Shown here in pieces: positions 979-18,581 of a stretch of 64,000 nt of DNA. Origin of the DNA: Tistrella mobilis KA081020-065. Its GTDB lineage: Bacteria > Pseudomonadota > Alphaproteobacteria > Tistrellales > Tistrellaceae. The notes below the pieces were generated by a model. It saw only the letters and a program-made list of their open reading frames with translations, was not told the origin of the DNA and made no database searches. Both the position numbers and the translations under genes were made by a program. The DNA lies in contig NC_017956.1 in the NCBI RefSeq assembly GCF_000264455.2, positions 2,834,001 through 2,898,000 on the forward strand, read 5' to 3'. Numbering within the stretch: position 1 is the stretch's first letter; each line of letters starts with the position of its first letter.

Positions 979-1344
979 TCAATCCAGAAACTTGCGCACC
1001 GTTTCGAGGAACGGGGTCACCGAGATCGGCTTCGAGATATAGCCCTCACAGCCGGCATCCAGGATCTTCTCCTCGTCGCCCTTCATCGCGAAGGCCGTGA
1101 CCGCGATGATCGGGATCGTGCGGAGATCGTCGTCGGCCTTGATCCACTTGGTCACGTCCAGTCCTGACACTTCAGGCAACTGAATGTCCATCAGAATCAG
1201 ATCGGGATGCTGATCCCGTGCGATCTTCAGGGCCTCCATACCGTCACGGGTCTGCAGAGTCACGTAGCCGTTCGCCTCAAGGAGGTCATTGAACAGCTTC
1301 ATGTTCAGTTCGTTGTCTTCGACGATCAGAACCGTCTTCGGCAT
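979..1344 (-). CDS. divK: DivK single-domain response regulator
   Basis: This is a 121-residue stand-alone receiver domain. It has the acidic pair VEDNE, phosphoacceptor Asp53 ([10 protein letters not shown]), the Thr/Ala switch VTAFAMKG and Lys in YISKPIS. DivK proteins shuttle phosphate between PleC and DivJ-type kinases and control CtrA through DivL. I chose the ATG at 1344 (MPKTVLIV), which has a GGGGCGGA ribosome site upstream. A TTG two codons earlier is less likely. The gene leads a two-gene operon with pleD and diverges from the ROK kinase gene. I see no CtrA-type TTAA-N7-TTAA site in the 233-base divergent region. Confidence 0.95.
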
Positions 1345-1577
1345 GGCCAATTCCGCCCCGCGCCATCAGGAGGTCCCCTCGGCCGCCGCGGCGGCCCGAC
1401 CTCACGTCGAACGGCCCGCGACCGGCGGTTCGCCTCGTACCGGCGCACGATGCCCGGTTCCGATGACCGCAGCAATCATTTTGTGGCCATCCGTCAGGCG
1501 GTGCAACATCATGCGTGTCCGATGGGCCGTTTCCGATCATGCCCCGGCCCGGTCAAGCTGGAGGAGAACGGCCACAC

Positions 1578-2603
1578 ATGTTGGACCCGGCTGCCGCAAA
1601 CGATGGCTCCCGTATGCAGTCCCGGGTGCTTGTCGGCATCGATCTGGGCGGCACGAAGATTGCGGCAGTCGCCATCGAACGGGCAACAGGGCGAACGCTT
1701 GCACATTTACGCATGCCGACGCCGCGTGGCGACTATGATGCCACCATACGGACCATCGACGAGATTGCCGCCCGCGCGGAACAGGCGGCCGGAGTGACGG
1801 AGCGCCTGCCGCTGGGCATCGGCATGCCCGGCGCCATCAGCCCCAAAACCGGTCTGGTGAAGAACGCCAACTCCACCTGGCTGAACGGCCGGCCGCTGGA
1901 CCGCGATTTCACGGCACGCACCGGCAGGGCCGTGCGACTTGCCAATGATGCGAATTGCCTGGCGGTGTCGGAAGCCGTCGACGGGGCGGCGGCGGGGGCC
2001 CGTCTGGTCTTTGCCGCCATCCTGGGCACGGGCATCGGCGGCGGCATCGCCATCGATGGCCGGGTGCATGACGGCGCCGATGCGATCGCCGGCGAATGGG
2101 GCCACACCCCGATGCCCTGGGCCCAGCCCTGGAGCCGGGCCCCCGGCGAAACCCCGCCGCCGCAGGCCGCCGACCTGCCGGAACTGCCGGGCCCTGCCTG
2201 CTATTGCGGCCGGACGGGCTGCATCGAGACGCTGCTGTCGGGCCCCGGGCTTGCCCGCGATGGCGCCCGGCTGCGCGGGCTGGACGACGACGCCGCCGCC
2301 CTGGAACACAGCGCCGAGGCCGTGCTGGCGGCGGAACGGGCCGGCGCCCCCTGGGCGCTGGCGGCCGTGGCGCGCTGGCGCCATCGCTTCGGCCGGGCGC
2401 TGGCCATGATCGTCAACATCCTGGACCCGGATGTGATCGTGCTGGGTGGCGGGCTGTCGCAGGTGCCGGCACTGGTGGCGGATCCCGGGCCTCTGGTCGC
2501 GCCCTGGCTGTTTTCCGACCGGATGCGCACGCCGGTGCGCATTGCGCGCCATGGCGACGACAGCGGCGTGCGCGGCGCCGCCCGGCTGTGGGACAGCGCC
2601 TGA
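1578..2603 (+). CDS. ROK family sugar kinase
   Basis: This is a 341-residue ROK-fold kinase that likely phosphorylates glucose, fructose or N-acetylglucosamine in the cytoplasm. The N-terminal phosphate loop is IDLGGTK (about residues 21-27) and the acidic/GT block is ILGTGIGGG. The ROK signature EWGHTPM and the zinc-binding CYCGRTGCIE are both intact. The start is the ATG at 1578 because GGAGGAG precedes it by about ten bases. An in-frame ATG at 1515 would add 21 unconserved residues. It has no helix-turn-helix, so it is a kinase rather than a ROK repressor. It stands alone, divergent from divK. Substrate specificity cannot be read from the sequence. Confidence 0.9.
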   Translation: MLDPAAANDGSRMQSRVLVGIDLGGTKIAAVAIERATGRTLAHLRMPTPRGDYDATIRTIDEIAARAEQAAGVTERLPLGIGMPGAISPKTGLVKNANSTWLNGRPLDRDFTARTGRAVRLANDANCLAVSEAVDGAAAGARLVFAAILGTGIGGGIAIDGRVHDGADAIAGEWGHTPMPWAQPWSRAPGETPPPQAADLPELPGPACYCGRTGCIETLLSGPGLARDGARLRGLDDDAAALEHSAEAVLAAERAGAPWALAAVARWRHRFGRALAMIVNILDPDVIVLGGGLSQVPALVADPGPLVAPWLFSDRMRTPVRIARHGDDSGVRGAARLWDSA

Positions 2604-2702
2604 CCGCAGGATCGGCGGGCCGTGGCTCGGCACTGGACGCGAAGCCCGCCGCGTGGGAACATGACCGGAACATCCGGCCGTTCCTGGCGAGTGCCACAGC
2701 CC

Positions 2703-3962
2703 ATGTCCGCAGCCCCTGCCGCCGATGACGGCGGCACAGATCAGGCTTACCCACCCGCAGGCTGCGCCCCTGCATCGGCCGCGGGGTGGCTGTGCCGCGA
2801 CTGCGGATCCACCCGCATGGCCGAAGACGGCAACCGGCGCTGCCCGGCCTGCGGTTCGGCGCGGATCGTGATCCATCCCGAACTGCACCGGCTGACCATC
2901 GCCCATGTCGATTGCGATGCCTTCTACGCCTCGGTCGAAAAGCGCGACCGGCCCGATCTGGCGCAACGGCCGGTGATCGTGGGCGGCGGCCATCGCGGTG
3001 TCGTCGCCACCTGTTGCTATCTGGCCCGGATGAAGGGCGTGCGCTCGGCCATGCCGATGTTCAAGGCGCGCGAACTGTGCCCGGATGCGGTGGTGCTGCC
3101 GCCCGATATGGCGCGCTATCGCGAGGCGGGGCTGAAGATCCGCCGGCTGATGCGTGCCCTCACCCCGCTGGTCGAGCCCTTGTCGATCGACGAGGCCTAT
3201 CTGGATCTGGGGCCGGAGGCGGGGGCGCCCGACAGTCGGGCCAGCCCCGCCCAGCGCCTGGCCGCCCTGGCCCGCCGGGTGGAGCGCGAGGTGGGGGTCA
3301 CGGTCTCGGTCGGGCTCGGCCCCAACAAGTTTCTGGCCAAGCTGGCCTCGGAACTGGACAAGCCGCGCGGCTTTGCGGTGATCGGTACAGCCGAAGCCGC
3401 CGCCTTCCTGGCCGACAAGCCGGTGCGCATGCTGTGGGGGGTGGGCCCGGCCTTCGAACGCCGGCTTGCCACAGACGGCATCACCCGGATCGGCCAGCTG
3501 CAATCACTGGGGCCGCAGGCGCTGGCCCGCCGCTATGGCCGGATCGGCGCCCAGATCGCGGGCTTTGCCACGGGGCGCGACCCGCGGCGGGTGACGCCCT
3601 CGCGCCCGGCCAAAAGCGTGTCGGCCGAAACCACGCTGGCCCGCGACGAACGCGCCGCCGACCGCCTGGCAGAGCTGTTGCCGCCGCTGGCCGAACGGGT
3701 GGCGGCCCGTCTGGCCGGCAGCCGTCTGGTGGCCGAAGGCGTGGTGCTGAAGCTGAAGACCGCCGATTTTCAGACCCTGACCCGCAGCCGGCGGCTGAAG
3801 GCGCCGACCGATCGATCGGCGCCCCTGATCGCCGCGGCACAGGACCTGCTCGCCGCCGAGGCGACCGGCGATACCGCCTTCCGGCTGATCGGGCTGGGCG
3901 CCCAGCCGGTGCGCGACCGGGACGGCGACCCCGCCGCCCCGGATCTCTTCGGCACCGGCTGA
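2703..3962 (+). CDS. dinB: DNA polymerase IV (Y family) with N-terminal zinc-ribbon-like extension
   Basis: This is an error-prone translesion polymerase of about 419 residues. The palm carries the metal ligands in HVDCDAFYASVEKRD and SIDEAYLDL. The fingers, thumb (GVGPAFERRLATDGI, a helix-hairpin-helix) and little-finger domain follow. Ahead of the catalytic core is a CRDC...CPAC pair, a Cys4 ribbon seen in some alphaproteobacterial Pol IV proteins but absent from the E. coli enzyme. The start is uncertain. ATG 2703 keeps the whole ribbon, while ATG 2661 has a slightly better upstream GTGGGAA. The stop lies four bases from the converging thioesterase stop. I see no LexA box in the short upstream region. 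Confidence 0.93.
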   Translation: MSAAPAADDGGTDQAYPPAGCAPASAAGWLCRDCGSTRMAEDGNRRCPACGSARIVIHPELHRLTIAHVDCDAFYASVEKRDRPDLAQRPVIVGGGHRGVVATCCYLARMKGVRSAMPMFKARELCPDAVVLPPDMARYREAGLKIRRLMRALTPLVEPLSIDEAYLDLGPEAGAPDSRASPAQRLAALARRVEREVGVTVSVGLGPNKFLAKLASELDKPRGFAVIGTAEAAAFLADKPVRMLWGVGPAFERRLATDGITRIGQLQSLGPQALARRYGRIGAQIAGFATGRDPRRVTPSRPAKSVSAETTLARDERAADRLAELLPPLAERVAARLAGSRLVAEGVVLKLKTADFQTLTRSRRLKAPTDRSAPLIAAAQDLLAAEATGDTAFRLIGLGAQPVRDRDGDPAAPDLFGTG

Positions 3963-3966
3963 CGGA

Positions 3967-4404
3967 TCAGCCCGGCAGCGCGAAGGTCAGCGTGGTGTGG
4001 GCCACGGGCTCGTCGTCGCCGTCGGAATAGAGCGACACCTCGCCATAGGCCAGCCTGCGGCCGCACCGGATCAGCCGTGCTTCGGAAAGCACGTCGACCA
4101 TGGCCGGGCGGCGCAGGAAATTGATGGTCAGATTGCTGGTCACCGCCATCCGCGCCGGGCCCAGCCGGCCCATGATCGCGGCATAGAAGGTGACGTCGGC
4201 AAGCGTCGCCAGGGCCGGGCCGCTCAACGTGCCACCGGGGCGGATCAGCTGCACCGTGGCCGGAAGGCGGCCCCGGGCGCTACCGTCGTCGATCCGCTCG
4301 ATACGGATGCCGAGCAGCTCGGCCATGGGCAATTCATCACGAATGATCTGATTGAAGGCGTCGGGACGGATCCGGTCGAGGCCGGGTTCGACCATTACAG
4401 TCAT
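3967..4404 (-). CDS. PaaI/DUF4442-type hotdog thioesterase
   Basis: This 145-residue protein has the single hotdog-fold layout of PaaI-like acyl-CoA thioesterases. It has an N-terminal helix, the central helix segment GGTLSGPALATLADVTFYAA in place of the usual HGG...AD motif, and a strand TSNLTINFLRRP. It probably hydrolyses a cytoplasmic acyl-CoA, but the substrate is unknown. The classical HGG is replaced by LSGP, so the active site deviates from the type enzyme. The ATG at 4404 has GAGAGACG upstream. It is convergent with dinB and lies 45 bases downstream of eipB on the same strand. Confidence 0.8.
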   Translation of the reverse strand: MTVMVEPGLDRIRPDAFNQIIRDELPMAELLGIRIERIDDGSARGRLPATVQLIRPGGTLSGPALATLADVTFYAAIMGRLGPARMAVTSNLTINFLRRPAMVDVLSEARLIRCGRRLAYGEVSLYSDGDDEPVAHTTLTFALPG

Positions 4405-4449: not shown

Positions 4450-5379
4450 TCAGTCGCACTCTTCCGCCGTCGGCCGGTTTTCTACCGAGACGAGACGAGC
4501 AGATATCGCAAATTCACCGTAATCTATATCGAATCGCCGGACGACCCCGTTCGGCTGGATCTGGTAAAGAAGCTCATAGATCGGCGTCTCGGACCGATCG
4601 TCGGGCTTGAAGAAGGCCAGCCGCATCGGAATGACGGTCGCCGTGCGCAGCGCATCCGCCGCCTCCCCCGCCTGGACCGGCCAGTCCTGGTCGGCCGCGA
4701 TCTCCGTCGGCCGGCCGATATGGGCGCTCACGAAGGACAGGCTGTCCTGCCCCGATCCGGTCAGAACCTGGGCGCGGATGAAGGCCTCCCCGGCCTCCGC
4801 CGCCTGAAGCAGCCGCTCGGTATGGGCGGTGGGCAGCAGGGCACCGGCCGGCACGCTCTCGGTTACGCCCGGCGGATTGGCGAAACGAAGTTTCGAAGGA
4901 CGATCCGGTGACGTCCGATCGAGATGGGCGATGGCCAGTTCGACGCTCTCGCCGTTTTCTCGCTCTTCGTAACGAAACCGAAACCGTGTGCCGTCGTCCG
5001 ACTCCTCGGAATCGAACAGGATGTCCGACACCACCGGTTCCGCCTCGTCGAAATCGATCTCCATCCGGCTGGCCTGCAGCACCGACCAGCCGTCACAGGC
5101 CCGGTCGAAGATCACCGCCATATCACCCGCGACGCCGGCGATCGCGGCATCGGGCTGGGCTTTCAGCAGGCTCATCGCGTAATGCGCGCGGTGCGGCACC
5201 GAATGCGGGGCCGCCAGGGCCGCGGGCATCAGGGCCAGGACGGTTCCGGCCGCCGCCACGCATCCCAGGATCCCTTGCCCGATCCGGAACCGCCCTCCGG
5301 TTGCGATCAGGCGCGGCATCACGACCAGACGCGACATCACGGCTCGACGGGCGGCGGCGGAACGGCTGGGCAGAGGCAT
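4450..5379 (-). CDS. eipB: EipB family periplasmic envelope-integrity protein (DUF1849)
   Basis: This 309-residue exported protein begins with a basic stretch and a hydrophobic segment ending in ALMPAALAAP, which looks like a signal peptide. The mature part starts with the family pattern HRAHYAMSLL and contains FDRACDGW. A second Cys lies three residues from the end (EECD). In characterised EipB an equivalent pair forms a disulfide. EipB proteins adopt a spiral beta barrel in the periplasm and protect against envelope stress in alphaproteobacteria. The ATG at 5379 has GGAG upstream. A later ATG (5337) is also possible and would shorten the leader. No neighbour suggests a partner. Confidence 0.85.
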   Translation of the reverse strand: MPLPSRSAAARRAVMSRLVVMPRLIATGGRFRIGQGILGCVAAAGTVLALMPAALAAPHSVPHRAHYAMSLLKAQPDAAIAGVAGDMAVIFDRACDGWSVLQASRMEIDFDEAEPVVSDILFDSEESDDGTRFRFRYEERENGESVELAIAHLDRTSPDRPSKLRFANPPGVTESVPAGALLPTAHTERLLQAAEAGEAFIRAQVLTGSGQDSLSFVSAHIGRPTEIAADQDWPVQAGEAADALRTATVIPMRLAFFKPDDRSETPIYELLYQIQPNGVVRRFDIDYGEFAISARLVSVENRPTAEECD

Positions 5380-5505: not shown

Positions 5506-6387
5506 TCAGCGGCGGATCCCGCCATCCAGTGTTGCAACCGCGCCGTAAAGATCCGGACGGCGATCGCGGAACAGCCCCCACGAGGCTCTCAGCCGGCGCG
5601 CCATCGCCAGATCCAGCTCTGCGGTCACCACCGCATCGCCGCTGCGCCCGGCCTCGGCCAGGATCGCGCCGGTCGGGTCGGCCACGAAGCTGGATCCGTA
5701 GAAGGTGAGCGTGGCATCGCGGCCCGCCTCGGTCCCCACCCGGTTGGCGGCGATCACCGGCAAGATATTGGCGCCGGCATGGCCCTGCATCACCCGCCGC
5801 CAATGGTCGCGGCTGTCCCAGTCCGGGGCCTGAGGCTCGGACCCGATCGCCGTCGGATAGAGCAGCAGTTCGGCCCCAGCCAGCGCCATCGCCCGGGCTG
5901 CTTCGGGAAACCACTGGTCCCAGCAGATCGCGGCGCCGATCCGCCCCAGCTTCGTGTCGAACACCCTGAAGCCGGTGTCGCCGGGCGAGAAATAGAATTT
6001 CTCCTGATAGCCCGGCCCGTCGGGGATATGGCTCTTGCGGTAGAGGCCCAGCACCCGGCCGTCGGCATCGATCATCGCCAGGCTGTTGAAGAAGGCCTGG
6101 CCGGCGCGTTCGAAGAAGCTGACCGGGATCACCACCCCCAGTTCCGCCGCCAGGGCCGACAGCCGGGCGATCGCGGGATTGCCCTCATAGGGGCGTGCGG
6201 CATCGAACCAGGCCGGGTCCTGGTCCTTGCAGAAATAGGGCAGCTCGAACAGTTCCTGCGGCAGCACCAGCCGGGCGCCGGCCGCGGCGGCGGTGCGGAT
6301 CATCTCCTCGACCCGGTCGAGGTTCCGGTCACGGTCGTCGGCCACCGCCATCTGCAGGGCGGCAACCGTCAGCAGGCCGTCGGTCAT
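5506..6387 (-). CDS. aguB: N-carbamoylputrescine amidase
   Basis: This is a 293-residue nitrilase-superfamily enzyme that converts N-carbamoylputrescine to putrescine, CO2 and ammonia, the last step of the agmatine route to putrescine. The Glu-Lys-Cys triad is visible as PQELFELPYF, YRKSHIPDGPGY and AAICWDQWFPEAAR. The last two are diagnostic for AguB within the superfamily. The ATG at 6387 has ACGGAG about eight bases upstream. A longer in-frame stretch to 6525 is unconserved. The expected partner, agmatine deiminase, is represented nearby only by a degenerate relative (8119-9195). The gene diverges from the fadL-like gene across a 326-base AT-richer spacer. Confidence 0.93.
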   Translation of the reverse strand: MTDGLLTVAALQMAVADDRDRNLDRVEEMIRTAAAAGARLVLPQELFELPYFCKDQDPAWFDAARPYEGNPAIARLSALAAELGVVIPVSFFERAGQAFFNSLAMIDADGRVLGLYRKSHIPDGPGYQEKFYFSPGDTGFRVFDTKLGRIGAAICWDQWFPEAARAMALAGAELLLYPTAIGSEPQAPDWDSRDHWRRVMQGHAGANILPVIAANRVGTEAGRDATLTFYGSSFVADPTGAILAEAGRSGDAVVTAELDLAMARRLRASWGLFRDRRPDLYGAVATLDGGIRR

Positions 6388-6713
6388 GTCGGAACTCCGT
6401 CTGCGGCGTCTGAAATCCGGGACATATGATCCGCTCAGCCTATCCGGCCCCGGCCTCTCGCCGCAACCGAAGCCCTTGTGACAAGGCTGCGGCGCCGTGG
6501 CGGTTTCGCAACAGGTGGTTTCCAATCCTGGACATAATTCCTCTCATGATCGACGAGCAGTGCTTTCTATAATTGACGTTAACGTAAACGTTACTTAACC
6601 ATCGAGTGGTTCGAGGGAATTCAATCCGGGTTGTACACCCGCTTTGGATACCCACGACACATCCTGAAAGGGAATCTTTCCGGATCAAAAGAATCTTAAT
6701 GGGGAAACGTCCG
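6388..6713. other. Divergent intergenic region aguB / fadL-like
   Basis: This 326-base spacer is clearly AT-richer than its surroundings, especially 6530-6700. It holds a TATAAT hexamer at 6568-6573 and an overlapping palindrome at 6573-6588, described separately. A second imperfect dyad (GTAA-ACG-TTAC) runs into the first at 6584-6594. No open frame in it looks coding. If TATAAT is the fadL promoter, the transcript carries a leader of about 135 bases. Confidence 0.6.
6568..6588 (+). promoter_or_regulatory. TATAAT box overlapping a LiuR-like palindrome
   Basis: A perfect TATAAT (6568-6573) runs directly into TTGACGTTAACGTAAA (6573-6588). The latter is a 16-base palindrome with one asymmetric pair and an ACGTTAACGT core. 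From memory, MerR-family LiuR sites in proteobacteria have this ACGT-WW-ACGT layout. Overlap with the -10 box suggests operator control of the fadL-like gene downstream. No good -35 hexamer is visible 17 bases upstream. TTGACG inside the palindrome could alternatively be a -35 box with a poor -10. Confidence 0.45.
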
Positions 6714-8075
6714 ATGCACGCCCGTCCGCCCAGACGTCATCCGGGCCGCGCCGCCGCGGCCAGCCTGCCAACCCTTCTCGGCCTGCCCGCGCTTGCGGCG
6801 GCCCTGCTCGCCGCCGGCCCTGCCGGGGCTGCCGGCTTCTTCATCCAGGAACAGAGCGTCAAGGGCGTCGGCCGCGCCTTTGCCGGCGAAGCCGCCCTCG
6901 GTTCCGACGCCTCCACCATCTTCACCAACCCGGCGGGCATGACCCGGCTCGACGGTCGCCAGGTTCAACTGGGCGGCCATGTGCTGATCCTGAAGGCGGA
7001 TCTGACCGATGCCGGCTCCACCGCCACCACCCTCGGCACCGGCGGTGCCGCGGTGCGCTATGGCGGCGCCAATGGCGACCCCTTCGACACCACGCCGGTG
7101 CCGAATTTCTACGCCGCCATGCCGGTGGACGACGACCACCGGGTCTGGCTGGGTGTGGGCATCTCGGCCCCCTTCGGCCTGGTCGCCGACTATGGCGACG
7201 GCTGGTTCGGCCGCTACGATTCGACCAAGACCGAACTCAAGACCATCGACATCGCCCCCAGCATCGCCTTCAAGGCCAGCGACTGGCTGTCGGTGGGCGG
7301 CGGCCTCGACATCCAGTATGCCGAGGCGACGCTCGAAAATGCGGTCGCCAACGGCCTCGCCCCGGGCGGGCCCAGCCCCGCAACCGACGGCCATGCCCGC
7401 GTCGAGGGCGATGACTGGAGCGTGGGCTACAATCTGGGTGTGATCTTCACCCCGGTGCCTCAGGCGCGGATCGGCCTGCATTACCGCTCGGCCATTTCCC
7501 ACGACCTGAAGGGCACGGCCTCGCTCACCGATCTGACCGGCCCGCTGGCGGCGGCCAATTTCCGCTCCGATGGTCAGGCGGCGCTCGACCTGCCGGCCGT
7601 CGCCTCGGCAGCGGTGGCGGTGGATGTCACCGACCGGCTCACCCTGCTCGGCCAGGTGAACTTCTACGAATGGAGCCGGTTCGACGAGATCCGGGTGCAG
7701 TTCTCCAACGGCCTGCCGGATTCGGTGAAGACCCAGAATTACGAAGACAGCTGGGGTGTCAGCCTCGGTGCCGAATACCGGCTGGATCCGGCCTGGACGC
7801 TGCGCGGCGGCGTGCAGTGGGACCAGACGCCGACGGTCGATGAATACCGCACCACCCGCACCCCCGATGCCGACCGGCTGTGGCTGGCGGCCGGTGCCAG
7901 CTGGGAAGTCTCGGACTGGATCGGCATCGACATGGCCTATGCCCACATTTTCGTCGACGACACCCGGATCGACCTGATCGAGCCGGGCATCGGCGGCACC
8001 GGTCAGGTCAATGTCCGCGCCGATGTGGAAAGCAGCATCGATATCGTCAGCCTTCAGGCGCGCCTGAAGTTCTGA
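6714..8075 (+). CDS. OmpP1/FadL family outer-membrane transporter
   Basis: This 453-residue outer-membrane beta barrel of the long-chain fatty acid/hydrophobic substrate channel family has a signal peptide (about 1-40, ending PAGAAG). The FadL plug signature follows as GRAFAGEAALGSDASTIF and NPAGMTRL. The protein ends in KF preceded by alternating strands, as expected for a barrel recognised by the Bam complex. The ATG at 6714 has GGGGAAA eight bases upstream. An ATG at 6699 is also in frame. The palindrome upstream suggests control by a fatty-acid or branched-chain acyl-CoA regulator. It converges on the AguA-like gene with a perfect hairpin between them. Confidence 0.92.
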   Translation: MHARPPRRHPGRAAAASLPTLLGLPALAAALLAAGPAGAAGFFIQEQSVKGVGRAFAGEAALGSDASTIFTNPAGMTRLDGRQVQLGGHVLILKADLTDAGSTATTLGTGGAAVRYGGANGDPFDTTPVPNFYAAMPVDDDHRVWLGVGISAPFGLVADYGDGWFGRYDSTKTELKTIDIAPSIAFKASDWLSVGGGLDIQYAEATLENAVANGLAPGGPSPATDGHARVEGDDWSVGYNLGVIFTPVPQARIGLHYRSAISHDLKGTASLTDLTGPLAAANFRSDGQAALDLPAVASAAVAVDVTDRLTLLGQVNFYEWSRFDEIRVQFSNGLPDSVKTQNYEDSWGVSLGAEYRLDPAWTLRGGVQWDQTPTVDEYRTTRTPDADRLWLAAGASWEVSDWIGIDMAYAHIFVDDTRIDLIEPGIGGTGQVNVRADVESSIDIVSLQARLKF

Positions 8076-8100
8076 TCACCCGGCCCCTCTCGCCGCCCTC

Positions 8101-8139
8101 CCGGCCGACGACCTCCGTCTAGCGGAGGTCGTCGGCCGG
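8101..8139. terminator. Perfect 17-bp hairpin between convergent genes, stop codon in loop
   Basis: CCGGCCGACGACCTCCG (8101-8117) and its exact complement (8123-8139) flank the loop TCTAG. The right arm is also the last six sense codons of the AguA-like gene, and its TAG stop lies in the loop. The hairpin sits 26 bases after the fadL stop. There is no U-tract on either strand, so it is an unconventional terminator candidate or an mRNA-stabilising 3' structure for both transcripts. Confidence 0.6.
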
Positions 8140-9195
8140 GGCGGCCTCGATCAGGCCGGCGTCATCGGCCTCGGGCATCGGGGCCGGTTGCGGCAGGGCC
8201 ACGGCCAGGCGGGCGAAGCCGCCGAAGGGAGCCAGCGCCGGGCAGGGCACCTGCTCGATCGCCGCGGTGGGCAGGGCCCTGGACAGGGCCTTCAGCGCCG
8301 CTGCATCGTTGCCGTCTTCGAAGCCCGGCACCACCAGCCGGCGGCCGTCACGCAGCAGGCTCAGATAGCTTGCGGGCAGCAGCCGCCCGGCGTCGTCCCG
8401 CGGCCGGCGCTTCGGCAGGGGCACCGGCACCACGCTCATCGGCATGCCGTCGGCCAGGGTCACCACCTCCAGCCGGCGCCGGATCTCGGCCAGGGCGGCA
8501 TGATCCGGATCGCCTTCGGGCGCCACCGCCACGGCGACCACCCCCGGCGCCAGAAAACGGACCACGCCATCCAGATTGCCGGGCCGCTCGTCGCCCGAAA
8601 ATCCACCCGGCACCCAGACCACGCGGGTCGCGCCGAAGGTTGCGGCCAGATGCACGGCCATGGCCTCGCGGTCGGCCTCTCGCCCGCCGACCAGCACCTC
8701 GCTTGCTACCAGCACCCCGCCGCCATCGGCCGCGACCATGCCGGCCCGGCCGTCGATGTCGAGCAGGATGCGGCCCACCGTCTCGTCGCCGGCCAGCGCC
8801 AGCAGGCGGCCGGCCACGTCGCAATCGTCGTGATGGTGGCTGCGGTCGACCGGCCATTCCACCGCGCAGGGCGCGCCATCGGCCGTCCGCCCCATCGACG
8901 GGCGGCGATCGGCAAAGCAGGCCAGGCTGCCTTCCCAGGACGACACCCCCACCCCGGCGCCGCAGCGCATCGAGGCGTCGGCAAGATCGCCGGCGCGAGC
9001 CAGCATGGCGACCTGGGTGTCGCGGGCCAGAATGCGGGCGGCCTCGGCGATGGCGAGGCCGGCATCGCGGGGATCGCTGATGCCGTCGGCCGCCGACGGC
9101 CAGACGGCAAGCCACAGCCGGGCCGGCTGGTCGGGGGCCGGCAGGTGGCAGGAGGGGTGCGGCGGGGCACCCGGATGCATGAACATCTCGGACAT
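8119..9195 (-). CDS. Agmatine deiminase-like protein lacking catalytic motifs (probable pseudoenzyme)
   Basis: This 358-residue protein follows the agmatine/peptidyl-arginine deiminase fold order along its length. It has LWLAVWPS near the N-terminus, RVVWVPGGFSGDERPGNLDG in the middle and LLPASYLSLLRDGRRLVVPG followed by ALPQP near the end. The residues that do chemistry in AguA are missing. WMRD is WEGS (87-90), DGHVD is GNLDG (206-210) and the GGGNIHC cysteine motif is PFGGFARL (323-330). Function is unknown, possibly regulatory. The start ATG at 9195 has GGAG upstream. It is the last gene of a long minus-strand run, 1.7 kb from aguB. Confidence 0.75.
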   Translation of the reverse strand: MSEMFMHPGAPPHPSCHLPAPDQPARLWLAVWPSAADGISDPRDAGLAIAEAARILARDTQVAMLARAGDLADASMRCGAGVGVSSWEGSLACFADRRPSMGRTADGAPCAVEWPVDRSHHHDDCDVAGRLLALAGDETVGRILLDIDGRAGMVAADGGGVLVASEVLVGGREADREAMAVHLAATFGATRVVWVPGGFSGDERPGNLDGVVRFLAPGVVAVAVAPEGDPDHAALAEIRRRLEVVTLADGMPMSVVPVPLPKRRPRDDAGRLLPASYLSLLRDGRRLVVPGFEDGNDAAALKALSRALPTAAIEQVPCPALAPFGGFARLAVALPQPAPMPEADDAGLIEAAPADDLR

Positions 9196-9494
9196 GAGGG
9201 CGTCTCCGCTCCGGAGCGCCGGGATGCTGGCAGGGCGATCATGACCGGGGGCGGCCCGCTAAACAGGCGGGGCCGGTCCTGCCCGGCATGTCGGGCCGCA
9301 GTCTCCGGCGTGAGGGGGATCGATCGTCGCTGGTGCGGATGGCGTGCCGCCGAGGTCGGGCCTTGCCTCGTCTGGTGTTCCCGTCGTTGCCGACGGCACG
9401 TCTGGTCGTGTCCCGGATCCCATCCTAGCGCGTGTGGGGGAAGAGGTGCAATCCGCAGCAGCACCCCGCCCCCTCCTCCATCCGAAGCCCGCCC
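9196..9494. other. Intergenic spacer ackA / AguA-like gene
   Basis: This 299-base stretch has no convincing open frame. It contains a small perfect hairpin (CCGTCG-TTGC-CGACGG, 9381-9396) and a larger interrupted one (9243-9278, outer arms GACCGG/CCGGTC). Either may end or process the ackA transcript. No clear promoter for the AguA-like gene is visible. Confidence 0.4.
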
Positions 9495-10673
9495 CTATCC
9501 GAAGATCAGCCGCGCCGTTTCGCGCGCGATCACCGCCTCTTCATCGGTGTCGAGCGCCAGAACCAGCACCGGGCTCGCAGCGGCCGAAATCACCGGGCCG
9601 TGGGCGGCATTGGCCGCCGGATCGAGGGTCACGCCCAGAAAGCCCAGATGGGCGGCAATGCGCGCCCGCATGCCGGCTGAATACCGCCCGATGCCGGCGG
9701 TGAACACCAGCACGTCCAGTCCGCCGATCGCCACCGCCACCGAGCCCGCCTCGCGACCGGCACGATAGGCGAACAGGGCCATCGCCTCTTCGGCCTTCGG
9801 ATCCGATGAGGTCTCCAGCACGCGCATGTCGTCGGAGACGCCCGACACGCCGAGCAGACCCGAGCGGGCATTCAGCAGCCGGTCGACCTCGGCCGCCGTC
9901 ATGCCCCGGTCGCGGATCAGATGCAGCACCACGCCGGGGTCGATCGCCCCCGACCGCTTGCCCATCATCAGCCCGTCGAGTGCTGTAAAGCCCATGGTGG
10001 TCGCCACCGACCGCCGGGCGAGCATGCCGCAAAGGCTGGCGCCGTGGCCCAGATGCGCCACGATCACCCGCCCGTCGGCGCGCGGGCCGGCATGATCCGG
10101 CAGCACATGGGCGATATGGGCGTAAGACAGGCCGTGGAAGCCATAGCGCAGCACGCCCTCGTCGGTCAGCTCCCGCGGGATCGGCATGGTCTGGGCGATC
10201 CGGGGCTGGCTGCGGTGAAAGGCGGTGTCGAAACAGGCGACCTGCGGCAGATCCGGCCAGAGCTTCCGGGTCGCGGCAATCCCCGACAGATTGTGCGGCT
10301 GGTGATTGGGCGCCAGGGCCACGAAGCCCTCCAGCGCCGCGATCACCGCATCATCCACCACCACCGGCGCATCGAAGCGGGCACCGCCATGGACCACGCG
10401 ATGTCCCACCGCCGCCACCTCGCCCAGGTTGTGGACGACCGCCGCGATCCGGTCCAGCGCCCAGGCCGTCAGCCCGGCATGATCGGCCAGGCCCTCCGGT
10501 GGCTGGCCGATCTCCTCCAGATGCGCGCCGCGCCCCTTGGCCGACGGGCCCCTCAGCGTGCCGATGGATTCGACCTCGGCCCGGCCGATCTCCTCCATGT
10601 CCGACAGGCGGACGACGCCGAATTTCAGGCTCGACGAGCCGGCATTCACGGTGATGATCAGCTGCTCGGTCAT
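9495..10673 (-). CDS. ackA: Acetate kinase
   Basis: This 392-residue ASKHA-fold kinase interconverts acetyl phosphate plus ADP with acetate plus ATP. Family blocks are present in order: VNAGSSSLKF, GHRVVHGG, CFDTAFH, RYGFHGLSY, HLGHGASL and VFTAGIG. The length matches the family. The start ATG (10673) overlaps the stop of the Pta-like gene by four bases (ATGA), so translation is coupled and the two enzymes form an acetyl-CoA to acetate module. Placement below leucine dehydrogenase and the liu genes suggests disposal of acetyl-CoA from amino-acid breakdown. Confidence 0.96.
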   Translation of the reverse strand: MTEQLIITVNAGSSSLKFGVVRLSDMEEIGRAEVESIGTLRGPSAKGRGAHLEEIGQPPEGLADHAGLTAWALDRIAAVVHNLGEVAAVGHRVVHGGARFDAPVVVDDAVIAALEGFVALAPNHQPHNLSGIAATRKLWPDLPQVACFDTAFHRSQPRIAQTMPIPRELTDEGVLRYGFHGLSYAHIAHVLPDHAGPRADGRVIVAHLGHGASLCGMLARRSVATTMGFTALDGLMMGKRSGAIDPGVVLHLIRDRGMTAAEVDRLLNARSGLLGVSGVSDDMRVLETSSDPKAEEAMALFAYRAGREAGSVAVAIGGLDVLVFTAGIGRYSAGMRARIAAHLGFLGVTLDPAANAAHGPVISAAASPVLVLALDTDEEAVIARETARLIFG

Positions 10674-15620: not shown

Positions 15621-16532
15621 TCAGGCCGCCTCGCATTTCGCGCGTAGGGCGCGCGACACCCGCCCTGCCGGCGGCCGGCCCAACTGATCCGAGATGAACC
15701 AGCCGGCCTGCAGCACCGCATCGAAATCGATGCCGGTACGGATGCCCATGCCGTTCAGCATATAGAGCACGTCCTCGGTCGCGACATTGCCGGTCGCCCC
15801 CTTGGCATAGGGGCAGCCGCCGAGACCCGCGACCGAGGCATCGACCACGGCGATGCCTTCTTCCAGCGCCGCCAGGATATTGGCCAGGGCCTGGCCATAG
15901 GTGTCGTGGAAATGCACCGCCAGCTTCTCGCGCGGCACCACGGCCGCGACGGTGTCGATCAGCGTCTTCACCTTGCCGGCGGTGCCGGTGCCGATCGTGT
16001 CGCCCAGCGAGACCTCGTAGCAGCCCATCTCGTAGAGCGCCTTCGACACCTCGGCCACCTTCGCGGGGTCGATCTCGCCCTCATAGGGGCAGCCGAGCAC
16101 GCAGGAGACATAGCCGCGCACCTGGGCGCCGGCCTCGCGCGCCCGCTCCACCACCGGGCGGAAGCGCTCCAGGCTTTCGGCGATGGTGCAGTTGATGTTG
16201 CGCTTGCTGAAGGCTTCCGATGCGGCGCCGAACACCGCAACCTCGTCGGCCCCCACTTCCAGCGCCAATTCCAGCCCCTTCAGATTGGGGGTCAGCACGG
16301 GGTAGCGGGTGCCCGGGCGCCGGGTCAGGCCGCGCATCACCTCGGCATGATCGGCCATCTGCGGCACCCATTTCGGGCTGACGAAGGCGGTCGCCTCCAC
16401 CGCCGGCAGGCCGGCGGCGGCCAGACGCTCGATCAGCTCGATCTTCACGGCCGTGGGCACGACCTCCTTCTCGTTCTGCAGGCCGTCGCGCGCGCCGACC
16501 TCGACGATCCGGACCTCGGAAGGCAGGGCCAT
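15621..16532 (-). CDS. mvaB: Hydroxymethylglutaryl-CoA lyase
   Basis: This 303-residue TIM-barrel lyase splits 3-hydroxy-3-methylglutaryl-CoA into acetoacetate and acetyl-CoA, the last step of leucine breakdown. Visible motifs are EVGARDGLQNE, AFVSPKWVPQMAD, the metal site VHFHDTYGQALAN and the catalytic-cysteine signature GLGGCPYAKGATGN. The ATG at 16532 has a strong GGAGGA nine bases upstream. It lies 26 bases after the mccA stop. Because of a one-base frameshift in mccA, the mccA frame runs on without a stop into this gene. The good ribosome site shows the two are separate proteins. Confidence 0.95.
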   Translation of the reverse strand: MALPSEVRIVEVGARDGLQNEKEVVPTAVKIELIERLAAAGLPAVEATAFVSPKWVPQMADHAEVMRGLTRRPGTRYPVLTPNLKGLELALEVGADEVAVFGAASEAFSKRNINCTIAESLERFRPVVERAREAGAQVRGYVSCVLGCPYEGEIDPAKVAEVSKALYEMGCYEVSLGDTIGTGTAGKVKTLIDTVAAVVPREKLAVHFHDTYGQALANILAALEEGIAVVDASVAGLGGCPYAKGATGNVATEDVLYMLNGMGIRTGIDFDAVLQAGWFISDQLGRPPAGRVSRALRAKCEAA

Positions 16533-16558
16533 GATCTCGTCCTCCGTCTGGAATTGCC

Positions 16559-18581
16559 TCACGCCTTGGCCTCGGCGGGGGCGAAGGCGATCAGCTCCGC
16601 CCCGTCCTCGACCAGGTCGCCCGCGGCATAATGGACCGCATCGACCGTTCCGTCGACCGGAGCCGAGATGGTGTGTTCCATCTTCATCGCCTCCAGCACG
16701 ATCAGCGGCGTACCCTTGGTGACCGCGGCCCCCGCCTCGGTCAGCACCTGCACCACCTTGCCCGGCATCGGCGCCACCAGCCGGCCGCCGCCCGCCCCCT
16801 CGTCGCCCGTGAAGGCGAAGGGGTCGAAGCGCTCGACCGCGGCATGCCTCCCCCGCCGCCCAGACATGCACCCGCGCCCCGACCTCGGCGACCCGGGCGG
16901 TGAAGCGATGACCGTCCAGATCGACGATCATCCGGCCGTCGGCCTCGATCGTGGCGCGGACCGGCTGCTCCGGCCCCTCGCCCACCGACACGCCATAGCC
17001 GGCCGCATGGAAATGCACCCGCACCGCGATTTCGCGCTCGCCGTCGCGGAAATGGTCATCGACATGGCTGACCGCGTTCATCCGCCAGCCATCGGCGATC
17101 GCCCATGGGCTGTGCGGATCGCTGGATGCCGCCGCCCGCTCCGCCGTGGCGCCGGCCAGCACCAGCAGCCGGTGGAGCGCCGCCGTCGCCAGCACCCGGT
17201 CCGAGACCGGCACCGGCCCGGGCAGCAGATCGGCGCGGTGCCGCTCGATGAAGCGGGTGTCGAGTTCCGCGGCGGCGAAGGCCGGATGGGCCGCCACCCG
17301 GCGCAGGAAGGCGAGATTGGTCTTCAGGCCGGCGACTTCGTAATCGGCCAGCGCCGCCTGCAGCCGCCGGATCGCCTCGGCCCGGTCGGCGCCGTGGACG
17401 ATCAGCTTGGCGATCATCGGGTCGTAATGGATCGACACCTCGTCGCCGGCGCGGACACCGCTGTCGACCCGGACCCCGGGCCCGATGGGCGGCACCAGGT
17501 GGGCCAGCCGGCCGGTCGCCGGCAGGAAGTCGCCGTCGGGATCCTCGGCATAGAGCCGGACCTCGATCGCATGGCCGTTGATGGTCAGCTCGTCCTGGGC
17601 CAGCGGCAGCGGCCGGCCATCGGCCACCTGCAGCTGCCAGTCGACCAGATCCTGGCCGGTGATCGCCTCGGTCACCGGATGCTCGACCTGCAGACGGGTG
17701 TTCATCTCCATGAAGTAGAAGGCACCCTTGCCCTCGGGCGAGGCATCGACGATGAACTCGACCGTACCGGCGCCGACATAGCCGATCGCCTGGGCAGCCT
17801 TCACCGCCGCCTCGCCCATCGCACGGCGGGTCGCCTCGTCCATGCCGGGTGCCGGGGCCTCTTCCACCACCTTCTGATGGCGGCGCTGGATCGAACAGTC
17901 GCGCTCGAACAGATAGACCGCCTGGCCGCTCTGATCGGCGAAGACCTGGATTTCGATATGGCGCGGCGTCACCAGATACTTCTCGATCAGCACCCGGTCG
18001 TCGCCGAAACTCGCCGCCGCCTCGCGCTTGGCACCGGCCAGGGCCGCGGGGAATTCCGCCTCGGAATGCACCGCGCGCATACCCTTGCCGCCGCCGCCGG
18101 CGGTCGCCTTGATCAGCACCGGCCAGCCGATCCGGCGGGCTTCCGACAGCAGCAGCTCCGGATCCTGATCCTCGCCGTGATAGCCGGGCACCAGCGGTAC
18201 GCCGGCCTTTTCCATGATCCGCTTGGCGGCGCTCTTCGATCCCATCGCCCGGATGGCATCGGCGGGCGGGCCGATGAACACCACCCCGGCCGCGGCGCAG
18301 GCCTCGGCGAAGGCATCATTTTCGGACAGGAAGCCATAGCCCGGGTGGATCGCCTGGGCGCCGGTGTCGCGGGCCGCCTTCAGGATCAGATCCGCCTTCA
18401 GGTAGCTGTCGCGCGCCGGCGCGGGCCCGAGCAGCACCGCCTCGTCGGCCATTTCGACATGGGCGGCGTTGCGGTCGGCCTCGGAACAGACCGCCACCGT
18501 GGCGATGCCGAGCCGGCGGCAGGTGCGGATCACGCGGCAGGCGATCTCACCGCGGTTGGCGATCAGGACTTTGCCGAACAT
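16559..18581 (-). CDS. mccA: Methylcrotonyl-CoA carboxylase biotin-containing subunit, interrupted by a one-base frameshift
   Basis: This is the ATP-dependent biotin carboxylase plus biotin carrier subunit (LiuD) that carboxylates 3-methylcrotonyl-CoA together with mccB. The start ATG 18581 (MFGKVLIANRGEIACRVIRT) opens a complete carboxylase domain with FLSENDAFAEAC, GGGGKGMR and EMNTRLQVEHPVTE. At about 16850-16854 a run of five C on the plus strand breaks the frame. The biotin domain with EAMKMEH and MPGK continues in the next frame to a stop at 16559. Removing one base gives 673 residues, the normal family length. A sequencing error or recent mutation is possible. Everything after the break is intact. 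Confidence 0.9.

Follow-up and report, generated by a model that had tools for sequence, protein, structure and literature searches.

We have analyzed a window of 64,000 nucleotides from the genome of Tistrella mobilis KA081020-065 (NC_017956.1, positions 2,834,001 to 2,898,000). At positions 8119-9195 of this window, on the minus strand, lies an intact frame of 358 codons with a GC3 of 0.88, the values for the adjoining aguB and ackA being 0.87 and 0.86. The gene and its surroundings are as follows (the dinB, ROK and divK names were assigned from the sequences and should be taken as presumptive).

979..1350, minus strand: DivK-like single response regulator; part of the ancestral neighbourhood
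1515..2603, plus strand: ROK-type sugar-kinase-like gene; part of the ancestral neighbourhood
2622..3962, plus strand: dinB-like gene; part of the ancestral neighbourhood
4450..5379, minus strand: eipB-like gene, start uncertain (PF08904, 235 bits); part of the ancestral neighbourhood
5506..6387, minus strand: aguB, N-carbamoylputrescine amidase (TIGR03381, 458.7 bits, cut-off 410.25)
6606..8075, plus strand: FadL/OmpP1 outer-membrane protein (PF03349, 333.9 bits), which in this genus separates aguB from the dead gene
8119..9195, minus strand: catalytically dead agmatine-deiminase-like protein of 358 amino acids (PF04371, alignment, dN/dS)
9196..9494, minus strand: leader between ackA and the dead gene, with blocks common to three genomes

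Within one of the blocks common to the three genomes the leader has the arrangement TTGCAC-18-TAGGAT, read by eye, a possible promoter. A consensus scan of positions 8050-9600 gave neither promoter nor terminator, and Rfam over the window gave no family at gathering score, only 16 weak, sub-threshold matches around the gene.

The protein matches PF04371 over residues 23-326 with 109.5 bits (2.7e-31). The curated gathering threshold of the family is only 25 bits, so that the gene could get named agmatine deiminase, and we point this out as a warning for annotation. With the AguA equivalog model TIGR03380 it scores 66.6 bits and does not reach the cut-off of 381.8, and its identity to 57 relatives is 27-34%. 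The best solved relatives by sequence were agmatine deiminases, some of them putative (1xkn, 1.3e-14; 1zbr; 3hvm; 2cmu). An AF2 model built from the protein and 57 members of a set of 80 relatives (see below) predicted a pentein propeller fold (pLDDT 86.9, pTM 0.86). When this model was used as query, the top Foldseek matches were agmatine deiminases (2jer, E 3.6e-23, TM about 0.8), and VIA-align placed both 6nib and 2jer at Z 36.4, with rmsd of 2.7 and 2.9 over 319 and 327 aligned positions, respectively. Since the family match, the solved relatives, the model and both structural searches agree, a true agmatine-deiminase fold is a safe assignment for this protein, as a prediction. The first-pass annotation, made from the sequence alone, had described an AguA-like fold nearly throughout an intact frame and had proposed a comparison with PF04371. 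Frame and fold are both borne out, and the similarity to PF04371 is present in the profile score as well as in the model.

Gene order and origin of the gene

We compared the neighbourhood in two sets of relatives. The first was drawn from a search of 385 genomes of the class, 106 of which, counting the three of the genus, had a match. Leaving the genus aside, we took the 41 best matches except one on a short contig (G306), with up to 6 kb on each side of the remaining 40; 8 of the 40 flanking regions end at contig ends. The second comprised the best 80 of at least 521 relatives, with up to 8 kb on each side, and leans to intact proteins because it was ranked by likeness to the intact L026. Among the 40 class relatives there are 9 with eipB and 6 with aguB in the flanking 6 kb or so. 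In the best 80 of at least 521, 58 of which extend downstream for 6 kb or more, the genes found downstream in the orientation of the window were dinB (22), divK (20), ROK (18), eipB (15) and aguB (15). Twenty of these 80 had dinB together with aguB or eipB, and four (L137, L156, L179 and L184) had aguB, eipB and dinB. The gene order in this set, again the best 80 of at least 521, agrees with that of the window, L152 having eipB on the other side of aguA. The complete divK-ROK-dinB-eipB-aguB-aguA order is found in L074, where aguA is intact.

The window has this same order and orientation save two additions: fadL separates the dead gene from aguB, and eipB and dinB have a small gene (3967-4404) between them. 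Judged by gene order, aguA-aguB-eipB-dinB-ROK-divK is met again in other Alphaproteobacteria, where an intact aguA occupies the slot; most of the 80 relatives are without it, so the arrangement is not general. The first-pass annotation had placed aguB 1.7 kb from the gene, which the TIGR03381 score confirms, and had taken this proximity as a hint of an action on the AguB step. That suggestion is weakened, since the same slot holds an intact aguA elsewhere; the nearness to aguB appears to be inherited and gives no evidence for a new link. Its question of whether the gene is conserved beside aguB or ackA has a divided answer. The neighbourhood is conserved in the three genomes of the order, but ackA, like fadL, is near none of the 40 class relatives and none of the best 80 of at least 521. 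In one of the three genomes (G001, L049:16274-17422) there is also a transposase-like frame between dinB and ROK, presumably of ISAs1 type, which is not in the window.

The genome has another PF04371 gene (L001; G000:C1:1493189), with 348.8 bits and located 1.35 Mb away, that retains every catalytic residue. Both copies, dead and intact, are found in all three genomes of the order examined, and they share only 25.8 bits. In the tree the intact copy groups with L015, L018 and L021 (support 100), and the alignment adds L094. The subfamily is marked by a common insertion some 20 residues long (TAEEAAG...) and by a shorter one after FNAWG, absent in L018; the dead protein has neither. As to other genes of the pathway, an arginine decarboxylase of speA type, the only type searched for, was over the cut-off in none of the three genomes, and the arginase family PF00491 gave two matches in each.

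Trees were built from 67 and then 62 chosen rows, the quick tree having many weak forks. The window protein and its sister share a long branch, with a stem of 3.69 changes per column, to which these trees assign no place. The AU tests rejected neither a tree that joins the protein to the genome's own AguA (p 0.64) nor one that joins it to the subfamily of that AguA (p 0.88). These two constrained trees had log-likelihoods 5.5 and 15.7 above the free tree, whose quick search had passed them over. Because the trees leave the dead protein unplaced, the case for a native origin rests on the neighbourhood, the profile scores and the missing insertions. A profile of 77 intact native-type proteins scores the dead protein at 131.8 bits. 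When the profiles were reduced to six rows, the native ones gave 116.5-144.7 bits (20 draws) and that of the other subfamily 59.3. Control proteins scored with these profiles gave (native/other subfamily) 527.3/327.3 for L026, 388.8/228.0 for L083 and 299.3/647.5 for L001. The native profile also scores higher for the dead relatives L083, L075, L068 and L057, as it does for the intact L026. The gene is thus likely, although not proven, to be the native AguA of the slot. If the gene were instead a copy of the intact AguA elsewhere in the genome that has since diverged, this would agree with the AU test that did not reject that grouping, and we hold such an origin to be rather improbable: the protein shares up to 118.2 bits with native-type relatives (best 80 of at least 521) against the 25.8 with its own AguA, scores 59.3 against 131.8 bits with the two profiles, lacks the insertions of the subfamily and is encoded in the native slot.

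Catalytic positions and selection

We have examined the catalytic positions in an alignment with 57 relatives, 54 of which keep the Cys. The positions concerned are:

8908..8910, minus strand: D96, kept (Asp in 57/57)
8917..8919, minus strand: C93, for the Trp of WxRD (Trp in 57/57)
8746..8748, minus strand: R150, for the Glu of EGG (Glu in 57/57)
8575..8577, minus strand: N207, for the His of GHVD (His in 56/57)
8569..8571, minus strand: D209, kept (Asp in 55/57)
8203..8205, minus strand: A331, for the catalytic Cys (Cys in 54/57)

A331 lies within FGGFARLAVALPQP, which is without the nucleophile of GGGxIHC; one extra residue adjoins it in the alignment, and the segment contains no Cys or His at all. 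Besides the Trp, the Arg of WxRD (also in 57/57) has been replaced, by A95, while D96 remains aligned with the Asp of that motif. D209 is the Asp of GHVD, and E203, four residues before the former His, is also retained (Glu in 44 and Asp in 6 of the 57 relatives). The Trp of FNAWG is deleted. Overall, the dead protein keeps 44 of the 90 columns in which the relatives show 90% conservation or more. There is a new stretch rich in His, Cys and Asp, HHHDDCD (residues 120-126), identical across the three genomes. No displaced Cys or His was found in the catalytic motifs: the His residues are at 7, 13, 17, 120-122, 182 and 232 and the Cys residues at 16, 78, 93, 110, 125 and 318, C318 being the nearest to the former catalytic Cys.

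Of the five residues, Glu among them, that we take to be catalytic in AguA, as in the Enterococcus enzyme, the alignment indicates that Cys, His and Glu are lost and the two Asp remain. Because the nucleophile and the His are missing, deiminase chemistry of the known kind is very unlikely. The protein shares with AguA (TIGR03380; PF04371; e.g. 2jer, 6nib) the near-full-length fold, the slot by aguB and the two guanidine-site Asp, and differs from it in having no active-site Cys, His or Glu, besides the identity and the TIGR03380 score given above. The first-pass annotation spoke of an AguA stripped of its catalytic residues. This is right for the Cys and the His, and extends to the Glu, but with D96 and D209 in place the wording was too strong. 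Specifically, its pairing of WEGS with WMRD was a misalignment, the aligned segment being C93-F-A-D96, with Trp and Arg lost and Asp kept. In GNLDG, compared with DGHVD, the His has indeed become Asn (N207) and the Asp is kept (D209), and FGGFARL does lack the catalytic Cys, with A331 at its position. A displaced catalytic Cys or His, which would have counted against that reading, is not found nearby.

For reference, the excerpts of a study of the Medicago enzyme (PMC6447857) give the triad as Cys366, Asp226 and His224, place Trp91, Trp125, Asp89, Asp94 and Asp220 around the substrate, and describe two acidic guanidine-binding residues in penteins.

The dN/dS of the dead gene was 0.096 against G001 and 0.047 against the same-species genome G058, with no gaps in either comparison. 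The corresponding values were 0.137 and 0.178 for the intact aguA and 0.047 and 0.026 for aguB, and ackA had 0.083 against G001. The whole set of nine other genes, in which the fadL, eipB and dinB frames were not begun at their true starts, ranged over 0.047-0.137 against G001 and 0.026-0.178 against G058. Actually, the low ratio against G001 comes partly from the dS of the dead gene, the highest of the ten genes (0.50, the others having 0.19-0.36), while in dN (0.048) it is level with the intact aguA and above the other eight (0.013-0.035). The differences from G001 are unevenly spread along the protein and leave two unchanged blocks:

8785..9012, minus strand: residues 62-137, 30 silent codon changes and 0 replacements against G001
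8179..8391, minus strand: residues 269-339, 16 silent codon changes and 0 replacements against G001

Together the blocks have 46 silent changes and 0 replacements, against 50 and 30 in the rest (Fisher p 1.3e-7, an optimistic value because both blocks were chosen after the differences were known). When the changes were placed at random in 50,000 draws, the two longest unchanged runs (76 and 71 residues) together had p 6e-5; the intact AguA differs at 28 positions, and its two longest runs have 41 residues each. HHHDDCD and the ends that once carried WxRD and the Cys are in the blocks, and the former EGG and GHVD positions fall outside, in a less constrained middle.

The gene is kept by purifying selection and is not decaying. 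A gene caught in decay before its frame breaks might be suspected from the very long stem, and this is scarcely conceivable given the dN/dS of 0.05-0.10 with no gaps and the absence of a stop in all three genomes, by which decay is refuted for the time since they parted. The earlier statement that this is not simple decay thus stands, and so does the idea of a fold retained without known chemistry, supported by the model (Z 36), the loss of Cys, His and Glu and the low dN/dS. On the alignment, conserved catalytic motifs have been lost and the protein has been kept by selection, as in a pseudoenzyme. The unchanged blocks could also point to a new enzyme, in which the fold was re-used for a different reaction by residues such as C93, H120-H122, C125 or D96/D209: the first of the two blocks, identical at the amino-acid level between species, includes C93, D96, H120-H122 and C125, and all three genomes have the same HHHDDCD. 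We think this unlikely, since by eye no known motif was recognised there, and of the conserved guanidine-modifying triad of His, Asp and Cys described in the excerpts of PMC6447857 two members are lost in the dead protein.

Relatives without the cysteine

Among 385 genomes of the class and 398 of the phylum there was no close relative outside the genus, and the gene was found in three genomes only; the best match outside the genus in that search was L026, of intact type, with 115.9 bits and 34% identity. A contig scan with the dead protein itself, from which records near that of the window were possibly excluded, gave 87 pattern matches and no relative, and an alignment of 20 rows had no stretch conserved enough for scanning. 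In the literature listed on inactive agmatine deiminases and pentein deiminases, and on agmatine or polyamines in Tistrella, the titles and the opening parts of abstracts mention no dead AguA.

More distant proteins without the Cys were found in both sets. It is missing in 9 of the 40 class relatives (L062, L063, L065, L068, L057, L076, L075, L083 and L088) and in 3 of the best 80 of at least 521 (L149, L169 and L185). On the quick tree of 62 rows the presence of the Cys changes at least five times, the window lineage included, with loss and gain not distinguished. As read from these alignments, the loss of the Cys recurs in the class. L083 and L088 occupy the same eipB-dinB slot and have lost His and Asp besides Cys; the genome of L088 (G010) also has an intact copy. 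The loss is not always backed by a second AguA, since in G165, G262 and G339 the only PF04371 match is a gene without the Cys, two of these genomes having aguB at E 1e-60 or below. The relatives without the Cys (e.g. L062, L083, L088, L169 and L185) share the loss of the nucleophile with the dead protein but are far less diverged, keep WxRD and EGG, and branch separately from the window lineage, itself unplaced by the tree.

Some variants deserve a separate mention. In L062, L063, L065, L068, L169 and L185 GGGIHC reads GGGIHS or IHA (FHS in L062), four of them have GHVE, and the five of these six that were in the tree form one clade. For L062, L063, L065 and L068, the gene without the Cys is the only PF04371 gene in three of the four genomes. 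L101 (G280) keeps the Cys, but its His and Asp are replaced by Gln and Asn (GQVNK). L112 and L113 were considered as further dead copies and rejected, as they belong to another PF04371 branch and keep the Cys.

Possible roles of the retained fold

We consider it probable that the gene is the native AguA of the ancestral slot, retired from catalysis in the genus and now a non-catalytic pentein-fold protein under purifying selection, most likely one that binds. An AguA of another subfamily, with all catalytic residues present, would have relieved the native copy of its catalytic role. A burst of change would have removed Cys, His and Glu from it, and the remainder would be held by purifying selection. 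The binding face may be made up of the two blocks, with the old WxRD and Cys ends, and of HHHDDCD, and the ligand is more probably a partner protein or a non-guanidine compound than agmatine. We infer the order of events, the expression and the action by binding. A new non-catalytic job seems probable because the residues were lost and yet the ancestral neighbourhood was kept and selection preserves the gene. The binding of a partner or of another ligand is favoured because the Glu has become Arg150, the Trp of WxRD and that of FNAWG are lost, neither nucleophile nor His is left, and RESC5 offers a parallel.

According to the excerpts of its description (PMC9980740), RESC5 of Trypanosoma brucei (8dpk) is a pentein pseudoenzyme with Ala for Cys, Pro for His, the acidic pocket residues kept and an intruding Arg, for which the authors left open a binding to methylated proteins. 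As far as those excerpts go, it resembles the dead protein in the pentein fold, the Ala in place of Cys, the replaced His and the remaining acidic pocket residues; it differs in being eukaryotic, DDAH-like, part of an RNA-editing complex and outside an aguA locus. Foldseek with our model had RESC5 among its matches (E 5.1e-6). Another case is PADI6, a PAD-fold protein that is inactive and structural in the cytoplasmic lattice of the mammalian egg. The VIA matches included 9xrl, from the mouse lattice (Z 18.4), and unlike the dead protein PADI6 is an animal protein with extra domains.

The first-pass annotation had proposed a role towards agmatine or guanidino compounds, as a sensor, an inhibitor or a decoy. 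D96, D209 and E203 remain, and Asp94, Asp226 and Asp220 of the Medicago enzyme, taken as the matching positions, contact the substrate in the excerpts of PMC6447857. We see such a role as quite improbable because the pocket gained an arginine (Arg150 for the Glu of EGG); the Trp of WxRD is Cys93, that of FNAWG is deleted, and thermal shift detected neither citrulline nor dimethylarginine as a ligand of RESC5, in spite of its retained pocket residues (PMC9980740, excerpts).

The most interesting rival would be a prozyme-like role, in which the dead protein pairs with the intact AguA (or with AguB) and switches its activity. Both copies are found in 3/3 genomes of the order, solved bacterial agmatine deiminases include dimers, tetramers and one monomer (PMC6447857, excerpts), and in trypanosome polyamine synthesis dead paralogues activate AdoMetDC and deoxyhypusine synthase, as outlined in literature extracts. 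These trypanosomatid proteins, the prozyme and the dead deoxyhypusine synthase subunit, are similarly dead paralogues of polyamine metabolism beside an active copy. In the same extracts they belong to other enzyme families and have their activation of the partner shown. Still, we would give this role a low probability, since with only 25.8 bits in common a shared interface of the dead and intact proteins is not expected, and there are relatives without the Cys in genomes with no intact AguA detected, e.g. G165, G262 and G339 (one PF04371 match each). By the same analogy, a broader proposal, that Alphaproteobacteria repeatedly retire AguA and that here it became a dedicated binding subunit controlling polyamine synthesis or an unrelated process, like the dead paralogues of trypanosomes, is speculative and on balance doubtful.

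In the reading that we prefer, a retired native AguA that probably binds, the protein is a pseudoenzyme known in kind, and what is unusual is the clarity of its readable history. This is a clean case of chemistry lost in place, with the ancestral order, the intact relatives, a likely substitute enzyme and the selection on the remainder all visible. Since the nucleophile has gone missing repeatedly within a single class, one can ask why the pentein fold persists after catalysis.

Elsewhere in the window, at 15621-18581 on the minus strand, the frame of what we take to be a biotin carboxylase gene continues into a presumably HMG-CoA-lyase-like gene, and the biotinyl segment (EAMKM; 16559-16867, minus strand) is in another frame. 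In G001 (L049) and G058 (L052) DGHRF and EAMKM are read in a single frame, which suggests that the copy in the window carries a frameshift, either real or a sequence error.
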